In this document: in pieces, positions 1,182-50,148 of the stretch
Layout of the letters: each line of letters opens with the position of its first letter
Position numbering within the stretch: the first letter of the stretch is position 1
Assembly (NCBI GenBank): GCA_009839325.1
Contig: VXPW01000059.1
Span: 33,581 to 97,580 of the forward strand
Direction: 5' to 3'
Length of the DNA stretch: 64,000 nucleotides
Source of the DNA: Rhodospirillales bacterium
GTDB lineage: Bacteria > Pseudomonadota > Alphaproteobacteria > TMED109
Notes under the pieces: model-generated
What the model was told of the DNA's origin: nothing
The model's input: the letters and a program-made list of their open reading frames with translations, nothing else
Databases searched by the model: none
Translations under genes and position numbers: made by a program

Positions 1182-3157
<1,976 letters not shown>

Positions 3158-3405
3158 AACGACGCAGGATGAAGTTTGCGATGAACCGCGGCTGACGTCA
3201 AACCGTGATGAGCGGAATCAATGATCCGGGCGAGCCCTGCCCACACCATCGTGCCGCGCCGTTGCACCCTGCCGGCCCTACCGTAAACTGCCAGCCGCGA
3301 CCCCATCCCGGCATCCAGACGTTGCTTCGCCGCAAGGTACCGTCTCTGCTGTCGGGTGCAGTGGTCCTGGCCGGCCTCCTGCAACCGCGTTCCAGGTAAC
3401 GTTCT

Positions 3406-41036: not shown

Positions 41037-41087
41037 CGCGGGGCGCGATGTTGACCTGTCGGGCCGATCCATTACGCTCCGCGTGTC

Positions 41088-41275
41088 CTCCCGCGGGAGA
41101 GTTCGGTGCATGTCACCGACGCCGAAGGAGCAACGGGGCCTCGGAACCTCTCAGGCACCAGGGACCGCGGGAATGGAGCACCTCTGGAGAGTGGCGAAGG
41201 TGACTTCGCCCACCGAAGGGGTAAGTCCGATATCCATTCCGGGCGTCGGACGAATCTCTCAGGTCCCATGACAGA
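41088..41275 (+). ncRNA. Tandem glycine riboswitch of the gcv operon
   Basis: Two glycine aptamers follow one another. The first (about 41088-41168) has GGGAGAG, GCCGAAGGAGCAA and CCTCTCAGGCACCAGGGACCG. The second (about 41186-41275) has TCTGGAGAG, CACCGAAGGGGTAAG and AATCTCTCAGGTCCCATGACAGAGG. These are the conserved purine-rich cores of the class, joined by a short linker that is typical of the tandem form. It lies upstream of gcvT and is expected to turn on glycine cleavage when glycine is abundant. The leader between it and gcvT contains a hairpin covering the ribosome binding site (see 41307-41329). Confidence 0.95.
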
Positions 41276-41306
41276 GGAGGCCTTGCCCGGCATCGGTTGA
41301 TCCGTG

Positions 41307-41329
41307 CCGGAGGGAGGCGCTCCTGCCGG
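41307..41329 (+). promoter_or_regulatory. Hairpin covering the gcvT ribosome binding site and start
   Basis: CCGG (41307-41310) can pair with CCGG (41326-41329) and GGAG (41313-41316) with CTCC (41320-41323), giving a hairpin with a GCG loop. It buries the Shine-Dalgarno sequence GGAGGGAGG (41309-41317) and the CTG at 41323 that I take as the gcvT start. It is a plausible expression platform for the glycine riboswitch; the switching itself is inferred. Confidence 0.5.
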
Positions 41330-42441
41330 GATCTTCGCAAGGCACAGCGCGGCCCACACCGCTCCACGACCTGCACATGGCCCTCGGGGGCAAGCTGGTG
41401 CCGTTTGCCGGCTGGGAACTCCCTGTCCAGTACGAGGGCATCCTCGCGGAGCATCGCTGGACCCGGGAATCGGCGTCGCTGTTCGACGTATCCCACATGG
41501 GCCAGGTCGAGGTCTCCGGCAAGGACGCCGCCGGCCAGCTCGAGACCGTCATTCCGGCCAGCCTCCAGAGCCTGCCCGAGGGCCGCACCCGGTACGCGGT
41601 CATCACCAACGACGACGGCGGCATCGTGGACGACCTCCTCGTGACCCGCCGGGCCGACGACATCTTCCTGGTCATCAATGCGGCGAGGATCGACGCGGAC
41701 CTGGCGTGGTTCCGGTCACGCTTGCCCGTCCTCACGTTCAACCATCGGCAGGAGCGGGCGCTGCTCGCCCTCCAGGGCCCGAAGGCGGCCAACGCCTTGT
41801 CCGACCTGATTCCGGCCGCACTCGAACTGGCACCGTTCGCCTACGGAGAGTTCGAGCTCCTCGGCGTGCCCTGCACGTTCAGCCGCAGCGGATACACCGG
41901 CGAGGACGGTTTTGAGATCGGCTGCGACGGGCCGGCCGCCGTGTCGGTCGCCGAGGCACTGCTAGCCCGCTCGGAGGTGCGGCCAGCCGGCCTCGGGGCG
42001 CGCGACAGTCTTCGACTCGAGGCCGGTCTGTGCCTCTACGGGAGCGACATCGACGCCGACACCAGTCCCGTCGAAGCGGGATTGGCGTGGACGTTCGGCG
42101 CGCGACGGCGGGACACCCTCGCGGTGCCCGGCGGTGCGCGCATCGAACGCGAACTTGCGAACGGCCCCACCCGACGACGCGTGGGGCTGCTGCCTGAGGG
42201 GCGCGGCGTGGTCCGCGGCGGCGCTGTGGTCCTGGACGCATCCGGACACGAGATCGGCAAGGTCACCAGCGGGACCTTCTCTCCGTCGCTCGCTGTTCCC
42301 ATCGCGATGGGATACGTCGCCACCGAGCATTCCGAACCCGGCGCCGCACTCCAGGTCGAGCTCCGGGGGCGGCAGGTGCCGGCCAGGGTGACCCCGCTTC
42401 CGTTTGTGCCCCCTCGCCGCCACCAGACGCGGCCCACCTGA
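41323..42441 (+). CDS. gcvT: Glycine cleavage system T protein (aminomethyltransferase)
   Basis: GcvT transfers the methylene group from H protein to tetrahydrofolate, releasing ammonia. The product shows '[13 protein letters not shown]', '[12 protein letters not shown]', '[19 protein letters not shown]' and '[13 protein letters not shown]'. Homologs begin with a T-P-L-x-x-L-H segment, and this is encoded upstream of the first in-frame ATG (41377) as '[13 protein letters not shown]'. The only plausible initiator covering it is CTG at 41323, with GGAGGGAGG ending 5 bases before it, giving 372 residues. If ATG 41377 were used, the protein would lose this segment. It is the first gene after the tandem glycine riboswitch. 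Confidence 0.88.
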
Positions 42442-45764: not shown

Positions 45765-47891
45765 TTGATCGCCGCATCCCCCTGCACTCGCCGCGTCTGC
45801 GGCACGATTTCCCTGGTCCTGGCCCTCGGCCTGCCGGTGCCTGCTGCGGCCGCCACGGCGGCCGATACCGCCTCCGAATGGAGCGACGGCGAATCCTGGC
45901 GGACGCGAATCGTTTCGGCCGTGACAGCGGCCGGATCTCGCCCCACGCTCCCGCTCGGCCTGCAGGTGGCGCTCGACGACGGCTGGCATATCTACTGGCG
46001 AAGCCCGGGTGAAGCCGGATTGCCGCCCACCCTCACCGTCGGTCCAGCTTCGGAGAACGTCGCGTCCGTCGAATTTGTGTGGCCCGCCCCGGAGCAGTCG
46101 GTCGAGCAGGGGCAACTCGTCACACGCACCTACGCGGGAAACGTGCTCATCCCGATCCGACTCCATGTCGAGGAGCCCGGGCGGCCGACCACGCTCGATG
46201 CGGGAATCGACTACCAGGTCTGCGCTCAGGTCTGCATTCCCGTTCGAGTCGACACGTTGCTGCACCTGCCGGCCGGTGCCGCATCCCCCAGTTCCCACGC
46301 CCGGATCATCGCCGAAGCGGAAGCGCGCGTGCCCGGCCCGCCGCAGGCGGCCGGCTTCGAGCGACTGACCGCCGCCTTCGACGGGGTCCGCACGGTCCAC
46401 ATCACGGCGGACAGCATGTTCGAGCTGGATACCTCGCCCGAACAGATTGTCGCCCTCCTCGAGGGACCGGAGGGAATCTTCTTCCGCAGTGACCACGCGA
46501 CCGTCTCGGCCGACGGGAAAACGGTCGCGGTCGTTGTCGACGTCCTGCCCCCGTTCGATGCCGAGCAACTCGAAGGAGCCGATCTCGGTGTCACCCTGGT
46601 CACGGGCTCGGCCAACGCATACCGCCAACTCGTCCTCGCCGCGGCGCCAGCCTCGACCGGCGGCGACCTGACGCTCGGCGTGGCGTTCCTGCTCGCCCTG
46701 CTCGGAGGCCTGATCCTGAACCTGATGCCCTGCGTGCTGCCGGTACTCGGAATCAAGATTGCCCGGTTGATCGATGCGGCTGGGCAAGACCGGGCTGTCG
46801 TCTCCGCGAGCTTTCTCGCAACCGCAGCCGGTATCGTCGCGTCGTTCGGCCTGCTCGCCCTGCTGGTCGCCGCGGTTCGGGCAGCTGGCCTGACGGCCGG
46901 TTGGGGGTTCCAGTTCCAGATACCCGGGTTCATCGCCTTCGTTGCGGTGATCGTGCTGCTGTTCGCGGCAGTTCTTGCGGGTATCTGCGATATCCGGCTG
47001 CCCATTAGGGTGAACCGCTGGTTCCAGGCTGCCGGCGGCGACCTGAAGGGGCACGCGGGCGCGTTCGCGGAGGGAGCGTTCGCCACCGTGCTGGCCACGC
47101 CGTGCACCGCACCCGTGGTCGGCACCGCCGTGGGTTTCGCGCTCACGCGCGGCTTTGGCGACATCGTGCTCGTGTTTCTGGGCCTCGGACTAGGCATGGC
47201 CGTCCCATGGCTGCTGGTCGCCGTCCGGCCGGGTCTCCTTGCGATGTTGCCCCGTCCCGGCCCCTGGATGGGTCGTCTCAAGCTGGTGCTGGCGCTCATG
47301 CTCCTCGGCACGGCGATCTGGCTGCTGTCCGTGCTGCACTCGGCGGCCGGAGTCATCCCGACGGCTGTCGCCGCCGGACTGAGCGGACTCGCGGTGCTCG
47401 CATTTGCGGTCCGGACCGCCGAGCGGATCGTCCCGGTCGTGCGGGGCGCAGGCCTGGCCTCGCTGGTACTGGCGGTTCTGTTCCCGGCCATGGCCGGCTA
47501 CACGGGGCCCGGCGACCGGATGCCGGCCAGCGACCCGCTTTGGCGGCCGCTGAACCCGGCGGCCGTGCCCCACCTGGCCGCCGATCAGGTCCTCCTTGTG
47601 GACGTGACCGCCGACTGGTGCGTGACCTGCGTCGTGAACAAACGCCTGGTGCTCGATCGGCCGCCGATTCGCAACCTTCTGGAGGTTGGCGACATCGTCG
47701 GTCTGCGTGGTGACTGGACCCTGCCAGATTCGGACATAGCCGCCTATCTGGCGACGCACCAGCGCCTCGGAGTCCCGTTCAATGCCGTGTACGGACCGGG
47801 CCTTCCTGAGGGCGAGGTGCTACCGGAGCTACTGACTGCGGACGCGATCATCGAAGCCGTCCAACGCGCCAAACGGGCCAAGGTCAGGTAA
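45765..47891 (+). CDS. DsbD/ScsB-family thiol:disulfide reductase
   Basis: The 708-residue inner-membrane protein transfers reducing power from cytosolic thioredoxin to periplasmic partners. In order it has a signal peptide ('ISLVLALGLPVPAAAATA'), a periplasmic domain with cysteines in 'DYQVCAQVCIPVRV', an eight-helix DsbD core with the redox cysteines in 'LMPCVLPVLGIK' and 'ATPCTAPVVGTA', and a C-terminal thioredoxin-like domain with 'TADWCVTCVVNK'. The layout with a long N-terminal region resembles ScsB as much as classical DsbD. It starts with TTG at 45765. A peroxiredoxin gene follows within 80 bases, a plausible redox partnership, though that protein has no export signal. Confidence 0.9.
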   Translation: MIAASPCTRRVCGTISLVLALGLPVPAAAATAADTASEWSDGESWRTRIVSAVTAAGSRPTLPLGLQVALDDGWHIYWRSPGEAGLPPTLTVGPASENVASVEFVWPAPEQSVEQGQLVTRTYAGNVLIPIRLHVEEPGRPTTLDAGIDYQVCAQVCIPVRVDTLLHLPAGAASPSSHARIIAEAEARVPGPPQAAGFERLTAAFDGVRTVHITADSMFELDTSPEQIVALLEGPEGIFFRSDHATVSADGKTVAVVVDVLPPFDAEQLEGADLGVTLVTGSANAYRQLVLAAAPASTGGDLTLGVAFLLALLGGLILNLMPCVLPVLGIKIARLIDAAGQDRAVVSASFLATAAGIVASFGLLALLVAAVRAAGLTAGWGFQFQIPGFIAFVAVIVLLFAAVLAGICDIRLPIRVNRWFQAAGGDLKGHAGAFAEGAFATVLATPCTAPVVGTAVGFALTRGFGDIVLVFLGLGLGMAVPWLLVAVRPGLLAMLPRPGPWMGRLKLVLALMLLGTAIWLLSVLHSAAGVIPTAVAAGLSGLAVLAFAVRTAERIVPVVRGAGLASLVLAVLFPAMAGYTGPGDRMPASDPLWRPLNPAAVPHLAADQVLLVDVTADWCVTCVVNKRLVLDRPPIRNLLEVGDIVGLRGDWTLPDSDIAAYLATHQRLGVPFNAVYGPGLPEGEVLPELLTADAIIEAVQRAKRAKVR

Positions 47892-47956
47892 CCTGCAGTC
47901 CGCTGCTCCGGAGCGACCGCCTGGTCCCTCTCGGGCTCGTGCCACCAATCAAACCC

Positions 47957-47970
47957 GGGAGGCTCCGATA
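47957..47970 (+). promoter_or_regulatory. Ribosome binding site before a putative ATA start
   Basis: GGGAGG at 47957-47962 is followed by 5 bases and ATA at 47968, exactly where the family alignment of the peroxiredoxin calls for the initiator. No ATG, GTG or TTG lies in that frame nearby. Confidence 0.6.
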
Positions 47971-48450
47971 CCCATCTCGACTGGTGATTCCATCCCCGCC
48001 GCCACGCTCCGCCGCCTCAGCGCGGACGGCATGGAAGAAGTGTCCACGACCGAGTTCTTCGGCAACCGCAAGGTGGTCGTGTTCTCGGTACCCGGCGCAT
48101 TCACGCCCACCTGTTCCGTTCAGCATCTGCCCGGCTTCGTGCAGAACGCCGACGCGATCAAGGCAAAGGGGGTCGACGAGATCGTCTGCATTGCGGTCAA
48201 TGACGCATTCGTGATGGACGCTTGGGGTAAGAGCCAGAACACCGGTGATTCGGTGACGCTGCTGGCCGACGGCAACGGCGAATTCACGCAGGCCCTCGGT
48301 CTGGGGCTGGACGGGACCGGATTCGGGCTTGGGCAACGCGGCCAGCGATTCGCGATGGTCGTGGAGAACGGTTCGGTCGCCCACCTTGCCGTCGAAGAGG
48401 CAGGCGCGTTCGAAGTGTCAAGCGCCGAGCGGATTCTCGCCGTCCTTTGA
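47968..48450 (+). CDS. Peroxiredoxin, Prx5 family
   Basis: This cytosolic thiol peroxidase reduces hydroperoxides through the peroxidatic cysteine in 'VPGAFTPTCSVQHLPGF'. The Prx5 hallmarks 'KGVDEIVCIAVNDAFVMDAW' and 'LGLGLDGTGFGLGQR' are present. Homologs are about 160 residues and start with a x-I-x-x-GD-x-IP-x-x-TL segment. That segment is encoded here upstream of the first in-frame ATG (48031) as 'PISTGDSIPAATLRRLSADG', and the codon at the expected initiator position is ATA with an ideally spaced GGGAGG. From ATA the product is 160 residues. Starting at ATG 48031 would remove the first beta-strands. A sequencing or assembly error is the main alternative. Confidence 0.87.
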   Translation: MPISTGDSIPAATLRRLSADGMEEVSTTEFFGNRKVVVFSVPGAFTPTCSVQHLPGFVQNADAIKAKGVDEIVCIAVNDAFVMDAWGKSQNTGDSVTLLADGNGEFTQALGLGLDGTGFGLGQRGQRFAMVVENGSVAHLAVEEAGAFEVSSAERILAVL

Positions 48451-48492: not shown

Positions 48493-50148
48493 ATGAGTGA
48501 GTCTCCCGCCCCGCCTCCCCAGCGGGAAGCCATGGAGTTCGACGTGGTGATCGTGGGTGCCGGACCGGCCGGCCTCGCGGCCGCGATCCGGCTGCGCCAG
48601 CTGGCTGACGAAACCGGCCGGGATATTTCCGTGTGCGTCGTCGAGAAGGCCTCCGAAGTGGGCGCCCACACGCTCTCAGGCGCAATCCTCGATCCGCGCG
48701 GCCTCGACGAACTCATCCCGGACTGGCGTTCGCTCGACACGCCGGTACAGACCCAGGTCAGCGAAGAACGGCTCCTGTTCCTGGGCGCCAGGAGCAGCTT
48801 CACCTGGCCGCATGCCCTGCTGCCGCCCGCCATGCGGAACGACGGCAACTACATCATCAGTCTCGGCAACCTTTGCCGCTGGCTGGCGGGCACGGCCGAG
48901 AGCATGGGCGCCGCGGTCTTCCCGGGCTTCGCGGCGACCGAACTGCTCACGGACGGGGACCGGGTGTCGGGGGTTGCAACCGGTGACATGGGGCTTGCAG
49001 CGGACGGTTCGCGCGGCCCGGCTTGGCAGCCCGGTGTCGAACTCCGGGGCACCTTTACGCTCCTCGCGGAGGGTTGCCGCGGCAGTCTCGGCAAGCAGGC
49101 CATCCGACAGTTCGGGCTTGATCGGGATTGTGAACACCAGACATACGGACTCGGACTGAAGGAACTCTGGCAGGTCGCGCCGGAGCGCCACCAGCCCGGA
49201 CTCGTCCTCCACAGCGCCGGATGGCCGTTGCCCGGCGATACGTACGGCGGGGCGTTCCTGTACCACCTGGAGGACCGCCAGGTGGCCGTCGGGTTCGTGG
49301 TCGGGCTCGATTATTCGAATCCGCACCTCAGCCCGTTTGGCGAGTTCCAGCGGTTCAAGACCCATCCAGCGATCCGGCCGACATTCGAGGGCGGGCAGCG
49401 CATTGCGTACGGCGCACGTGCACTCAACGAGGGCGGGCCGCAGAGCCTCCCCCGCCTGGTGTTCCCGGGCGGCGCGCTGCTCGGCTGCGACGCGGGAACC
49501 CTGAACGTTCCCCGCCTCAAGGGCACGCACACGGCCATCAAGTCCGGCATGTGCGCGGCTGAGGCGGCCGCCCGGGCCCTGGCCGATGGCACAGTGGATT
49601 GCGCAGCCTACGACACGGAATTCCGCGCTTCATGGGCCTATCGCGAGCTCTTCCGGGGCCGGAACGTGCGCCCCGGATTTCGCTACGGGCGGTTCTGGGG
49701 GACCGTCCTCGCCGGAATCGACCAAATCCTGCTCCGTGGCCGGGCGCCATGGACGCTCCGCCACGGCAAGCCCGATCACGCCAGCCTGGAGGATGCCGCT
49801 TCGGCGCGGCCGATCACCTATCCGAAGCCGGACGGCGAGATCACGTTTGACCGCCTGACCAACGTTGCGTTCTCCGGAACCAACCACGAGGAGGGCCAAC
49901 CGTGTCACCTGCAGCTCGCGGATTCGGATGTGCCCCTGAGCGTGAACCTGGCCCGGTACGACGGGCCCGAACAGCGGTACTGTCCCGCCGGCGTCTACGA
50001 GTTCGTGGTCGAACAGGGCGAGCGGCAGTTGCGGATCAACGCGCCTAACTGTCTGCACTGCAAGGCGTGTGACATCAAGGATCCGACCCAGAACATCACG
50101 TGGGTTCCGCCGCAGGGCGGCGAGGGCCCGCGGTATCCCAACATGTGA
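48493..50148 (+). CDS. Electron transfer flavoprotein-ubiquinone oxidoreductase
   Basis: ETF-QO passes electrons from reduced ETF to the quinone pool at the inner membrane. The 551-residue product has the FAD loop 'VVIVGAGPAGLAAAIRLRQL' near residues 18-37, the central 'LKELWQVAPERHQPGLVLH' and quinone-binding region, and a C-terminal [4Fe-4S] ferredoxin-like segment with cysteines in 'RYCPAGVYEFV' and 'NCLHCKACDIKDPTQNI'. No ETF subunit gene adjoins it. It links beta-oxidation, matching the acyl-CoA synthetase in the window, and possibly the GlcD-type enzyme at 32 kb to respiration. Confidence 0.95.
   Translation: MSESPAPPPQREAMEFDVVIVGAGPAGLAAAIRLRQLADETGRDISVCVVEKASEVGAHTLSGAILDPRGLDELIPDWRSLDTPVQTQVSEERLLFLGARSSFTWPHALLPPAMRNDGNYIISLGNLCRWLAGTAESMGAAVFPGFAATELLTDGDRVSGVATGDMGLAADGSRGPAWQPGVELRGTFTLLAEGCRGSLGKQAIRQFGLDRDCEHQTYGLGLKELWQVAPERHQPGLVLHSAGWPLPGDTYGGAFLYHLEDRQVAVGFVVGLDYSNPHLSPFGEFQRFKTHPAIRPTFEGGQRIAYGARALNEGGPQSLPRLVFPGGALLGCDAGTLNVPRLKGTHTAIKSGMCAAEAAARALADGTVDCAAYDTEFRASWAYRELFRGRNVRPGFRYGRFWGTVLAGIDQILLRGRAPWTLRHGKPDHASLEDAASARPITYPKPDGEITFDRLTNVAFSGTNHEEGQPCHLQLADSDVPLSVNLARYDGPEQRYCPAGVYEFVVEQGERQLRINAPNCLHCKACDIKDPTQNITWVPPQGGEGPRYPNM

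Follow-up and report, generated by a model that had tools for sequence, protein, structure and literature searches.

We conclude that a peroxiredoxin gene (prx5) of an uncultured alphaproteobacterial genus probably begins at an AUA codon. In this reading, initiation with formyl-methionine (fMet) at position 47968 is real and weak, is discriminated against by IF3, is rescued by a strong Shine-Dalgarno (SD) sequence and is kept by selection for low or IF3-sensitive synthesis (our estimate of its probability is about 0.84). The window, by which we mean the whole stretch of DNA that was analysed (64,000 nucleotides), belongs to a 2.7-Mb draft genome (G000, contig C25). Its features are collected in Table 1.

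Table 1. Coordinates of the features discussed, in window positions
Feature	Position	Strand	Remarks
glycine riboswitch aptamer, 5' of gcvT	41084..41177	+	Rfam RF00504, 69.7 bits
SD of gcvT, GGGAGG	41312..41317	+	matches the prx5 SD and its 5-nt spacing, here to CTG 41323
gcvT, which like prx5 lacks a canonical start	41323..42441	+	predicted start CTG 41323
dsbD-like gene, 5' of prx5	45765..47891	+	TTG start; TAA 47889-47891; Pfam DsbD_TM, DsbD_N, Thioredoxin_7
SD of prx5, GGGAGG	47957..47962	+	5-nt spacer CTCCG, read directly
putative start codon ATA of prx5	47968..47970	+	predicted to be read as fMet
prx5, Prx5/Redoxin-family peroxiredoxin	47968..48450	+	160 codons and TGA (48448-48450)
first in-frame ATG of prx5	48031..48033	+	judged to be internal residue M22
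ETF-ubiquinone oxidoreductase gene, 3' of prx5	48493..50148	+	ATG start; Pfam PF05187, PF21162

The peroxiredoxin gene and its ATA codon

The prx5 frame follows a dsbD-like gene, whose TTG start is kept among the genus genomes compared. The prx5 product matched the Pfam Redoxin profile PF08534 over positions 2-148 of 148 (E=6.1e-35, 120.6 bits). A phmmer search aligned it with the 1-Cys peroxiredoxin 5k2i (E=1.6e-49), the alignment starting 2 residues past the ATA-encoded residue. The closest solved structures were 5k2i/5k1g (1-Cys Prx), 1tp9 and plant/human Prx5 chains. These matches agree with the preliminary description of this DNA, which had recognised a Prx5-family frame with its conserved N-terminus lying 5' of the first in-frame ATG. 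The translation also contains the motif PGAFTPTCS, of the PGAFTPxCS peroxidatic cysteine type. Judged from its sequence, the product is a Prx5/Redoxin-type peroxiredoxin, for which peroxidase activity is predicted.

The same description had placed ATA at the initiator position with GGGAGG 5 bases ahead, had seen no ATG, GTG or TTG near the expected start and had assigned the product 160 residues. All three points held. ATA and GGGAGG are read directly from the DNA, the frame runs from the ATA through 160 codons to the TGA, and no in-frame ATG, GTG or TTG occurs from the dsbD stop codon up to 48031. Over the entire open frame, a canonical codon first appears at codon 66, and no ATG, GTG or TTG is compatible with the conserved N-terminus.

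We compared the locus in seven draft genomes of the genus (G000-G006), each representing a species. They fall into two subclades; of the roughly 87-91 fourfold sites that could be compared between these, 31-39 differ (34-45%). ATA stands at the start position in 7/7 genomes, followed by 159 sense codons. It sits in a near-invariant block, AACCCGGGAGGCTC(C/A)GATA, that is the same in all seven save for one C-to-A change, and the strong SD with its 5-nt spacer is invariant. The DNA immediately 5' of this block diverges among the genomes. Two of the seven loci have also been deposited as named MAG contigs (JAGWAT010000009.1 and JAJDZX010000092.1). ATA is rare among the isoleucine codons in conserved genes of the genus (160/5741, 2.8%), and yet it is invariant here, indicating more than chance.

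Nearly all homologs outside the genus have ATG instead. Among the named homologs, the position of the ATA is taken by ATG in 75/78 and by TTG in 1/78, with ATG one codon downstream in the other 2/78. A further 23 homologs, from the same family and class but different genera, carry ATG at this position or at most 2 codons away. Thus, the alignment of close relatives that the preliminary description had proposed as a check finds ATA, not ATG, conserved in all seven genomes, and with ATG outside the genus this makes ATA a fixed genus property rather than an error. Among the alternatives raised in that description, the relatives in both subclades favour actual use of the ATA codon.

Rival readings of the start site

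An ATA that is used might nevertheless be neutral, i.e. a weak start fixed once in an ancestor and never reverted, with no regulatory meaning. This rival survives best, and we regard it as possible but unlikely. A single ancestral event would suffice, the sample is seven genomes, and the prx5 5' region revealed neither a conserved RNA structure nor a regulator, the seven-genome consensus showing no covariation. Against neutrality stands the persistence of the third-position A. We took synonymous sites with third-position A in at least one genome and scored them for A in all. A was kept throughout at 3/29 such sites in prx5 and at 1/45 in the 5' portion of the gene downstream, compared in six genomes. 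At a combined 4/74 comparable sites (about 5%), retention is so low that an unconstrained A would usually have changed. The ATA thus appears constrained, although this is suggestive, not decisive, as chance retention of about 1 in 20 for a single site is not negligible alone. Moreover, reversion needs no more than a single transition, towards G, the genome is GC-rich, and the ATT of rsh and the ATC of infC (see below) persist likewise.

A hairpin hiding the SD was also considered. The pairing of CCUCUCGGG with CCCGGGAGG is found in G000 alone, where shuffled sequences fold equally well (z -0.64). It is absent from the seven-genome consensus and shows no covariation, and it was rejected.

Translation could also start at the ATG at 48031 and yield a 139-residue protein, the similarity 5' of it being a relic. 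This ATG is conserved in the genus and no canonical start precedes it in the frame, but several observations make the reading improbable. Variable sites in the seven genomes are distributed over the three codon positions as 15/7/78 in the whole of prx5, and codons 2-21 (2/0/11) show the same pattern as the remaining 140 codons (13/7/67), indicating that the segment 2-21 is coding and selected at the protein level. The selection pattern suggests that prx5 as a whole is a functional gene. Two residues 5' of M22 are kept in homologs, G6 in 101/101 and P10 in 100/101, as would not be the case in a relic; the position of M22 itself varies (P 50, V 19, M 18, I 12). Furthermore, GGACGGC ahead of 48031 is a poor SD, and the conserved SD sits at the ATA.

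Marginally less probable again is a start at another near-cognate codon nearby, such as codon 3 (47974), which is likewise an in-frame AUH codon. Used as a start, it would be separated from GGGAGG by 11 nt. Across the genus this codon reads ATC or ATT, its third base varying as in an ordinary isoleucine codon, whereas that of the ATA does not vary. In addition, homologs place methionine two residues before the codon-3 isoleucine (M-T-I).

Upstream entry fares worse. The subclades differ by a 2-nt indel located 5' of about position -50 relative to the ATA, and between this indel and 48031 an in-frame ATG, GTG or TTG is absent in all seven genomes. Because the indel breaks the frame, an in-frame upstream start is not common to both subclades; CTG 47893 and other such candidates were discarded as out of frame in the second subclade. 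Ribosomes might enter from a start in another frame, e.g. the existing GTG at 47939, and then shift frame, which we consider very improbable. This GTG reads ATG, GTA or GTT in the three second-subclade genomes, the indel argues against frameshift entry, and no conserved slippery motif was seen besides the SD block in the seven genomes. Finally, the ATA is one base away from the family start ATG, but a wrong base call or a recent loss of the start in a decaying gene, both entertained in the preliminary description, is almost certainly not the explanation, given ATA in 7/7 genomes of two subclades, two loci separately deposited as MAGs and strong purifying selection still acting on the whole gene.

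Translation machinery and proposed mechanism

In G004 and G006, where the initiator tRNA was read, its anticodon is CAT, excluding for these genomes an initiator with the altered anticodon UAU. No tRNA with a TAT anticodon was present among the 40 tRNAs of G000, whose assembly misses its initiator tRNA. Note that in the initiators of G004 and G006 the first of three anticodon-stem pairs is A-U, leaving two G-C pairs. In most initiator tRNAs all three of these pairs are G-C, and A-U as the first pair is common in alphaproteobacteria.

The IF3 of the genus aligns closely to the IF3 sequence of 8jsg, which we take to be that of E. coli, and retains the conserved C-terminal segments, including RFRGRE and GRQM. 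It is present and intact, and a degenerate IF3 is ruled out by this alignment. A conserved IF3 cysteine (PPVC) is present as well. The infC gene is itself devoid of an ATG start; instead, GGAG is followed by a conserved ATC (GGAGACAAACTA-ATC-GCT-AGG) in 6/6 genomes having its 5' end. With IF3 and initiator tRNA looking normal, initiation fidelity seems to be controlled in the usual way, and a penalty on near-cognate starts is expected.

We propose that GGGAGG, at its fixed distance, would place the 30S ribosome on the AUA of the prx5 mRNA. On AUA, the CAU anticodon would form A-U and U-A pairs and leave a C-A mismatch at the third position, and the first residue of the protein would be formyl-methionine rather than isoleucine. 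In vitro studies suggest that IF3 rejects weaker pairing at the third position (PMC10158994). As IF3 would partly reject the AUA complexes, the Prx5 yield is expected to be a fraction of the AUG yield and to increase if IF3 is limiting or defective. Such throttling of prx5 by IF3 is suggested by work in other bacteria (PMC13009471, PMC5472188), and the AUA start probably keeps prx5 expression low and sensitive to IF3. We suggest that selection for peroxiredoxin synthesis that is low or IF3-sensitive has retained ATA genus-wide.

On the comparative evidence, prx5 joins the small group of genes that naturally start at near-cognate codons. Experimentally supported bacterial AUA starts amount to a handful. 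To our knowledge, gene finders do not allow AUA starts, and the N-termini of such proteins would consequently be lost from annotation. In S. aureus, ccpN, citZ and infC have AUA starts, and AUA reporters with a strong SD reach about 10-30% of AUG expression, with about 10% in poor medium and, in the case of ccpN in rich medium, as much as 30% (PMC13009471). Like prx5, these genes combine AUA with a strong start-proximal SD, and the ccpN start is conserved among relatives. They are, however, other genes in another phylum, with no peroxiredoxin among them, and their starts were mapped by ribosome profiling, whereas the prx5 start was located by comparison only.

In Streptomyces, the GTC start of sigR is repressed by IF3, and infC has a near-cognate ATC-type start, as in the present genus (PMC5472188). 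sigR shares with prx5 a genus-conserved non-canonical start, a strong SD and a role in the oxidative stress response. In contrast to prx5, it encodes a sigma factor that is balanced stoichiometrically against its antisigma factor, its start is GTC, and its IF3 dependence was tested. E. coli infC and pcnB have AUU starts and are the only two AUU genes recognised in that species (PMC9410913). Their near-cognate AUH start limits translation, as it presumably does in prx5; compared with these two genes, at least two genes of the present genus, prx5 and rsh, join infC (ATC). prx5 could open a reporter route to IF3 control of stress genes beyond E. coli, Streptomyces and S. aureus.

Other candidate genes without a canonical start

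The prx5 AUA gains interest from companion non-canonical starts in the same genus, including that of gcvT in the window, which the preliminary description had missed. We scanned G003 against G001, which belong to different subclades, over roughly 0.9 Mb (525 genes), flagging selected coding regions that reach upstream of the first shared ATG, GTG or TTG. The survivors of the first set (contig C3 and the window-equivalent contig C22, 260 genes) were prx5, gcvT, rsh and a DASS symporter gene; the second set (C1 and C15, 265 genes) left no survivor after inspection. The scan misses genes in which a canonical codon happens to lie close by, so that its count is a minimum; it covers one genus, and no measured enrichment of odd starts is claimed. 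Flags on thiE, an SH3-domain gene, GcrA, clpX, murC, rpsL and others were discarded, as these have an upstream or normal canonical start. prfB was flagged correctly, due to its known +1 frameshift.

rsh, gcvT and the DASS symporter gene are thus further candidates for a non-canonical start. rsh/SpoT has ATT behind GGAGG and ATCCACC (GGAGGATCCACC-ATT-CGC-CAG) in 7/7 genomes (G000-G006), with an in-frame TAA or TAG 10 or 7 codons 5' of the ATT. Those out-of-genus genomes that could be aligned have ATG, GTG or TTG at or beside this position. The DASS/SLC13 symporter gene (G003 C3:33616-35193, minus strand; G001 C9 near 86 kb) has CTG as its sole start-like codon. In the two genomes read, one from each subclade, its CTGA overlaps the stop of the preceding gene, which by sequence is the usual reinitiation geometry with CTG replacing ATG.

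The gcvT frame is open from 41272 to 42441 (plus strand) behind an in-frame TGA (41269-41271), and its first in-frame ATG/GTG, at 41377, lies inside the family N-terminus. From the CTG, the product has 372 amino acids versus 371 positions of NF010093. CTG and GGAGG are kept in 7/7 genomes of the genus. In 2/7, an in-frame ATG lies four codons 5' of the CTG, within the SD, which makes this case less clean. Directly after the glycine riboswitch aptamer 5' of gcvT, a second aptamer-like stretch was seen by eye, probably extending to about 41285; it is below an Rfam match.

Taken together, the prx5 AUA, rsh AUU and infC AUC would make start-codon choice a conserved expression dial, unsuspected in this lineage. 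As a speculation that we consider unlikely, the genus may run a small IF3-governed translational regulon comprising infC (ATC), rsh/SpoT (ATT), prx5 (ATA) and possibly gcvT (CTG) and the DASS symporter gene (CTG). Initiation fidelity would then couple the state of the ribosome to the stringent response, peroxide defence and one-carbon metabolism, and Prx5 might be derepressed when the conserved cysteine of IF3 (PPVC) is oxidised. Regulation by oxidation of this kind was raised as speculation for Streptomyces, without demonstration there (PMC5472188).

The window also carries a TPP riboswitch on the minus strand (3053-3163; RF00059, 72.8 bits), 5' of a long conserved minus-strand gene (1185-3083).
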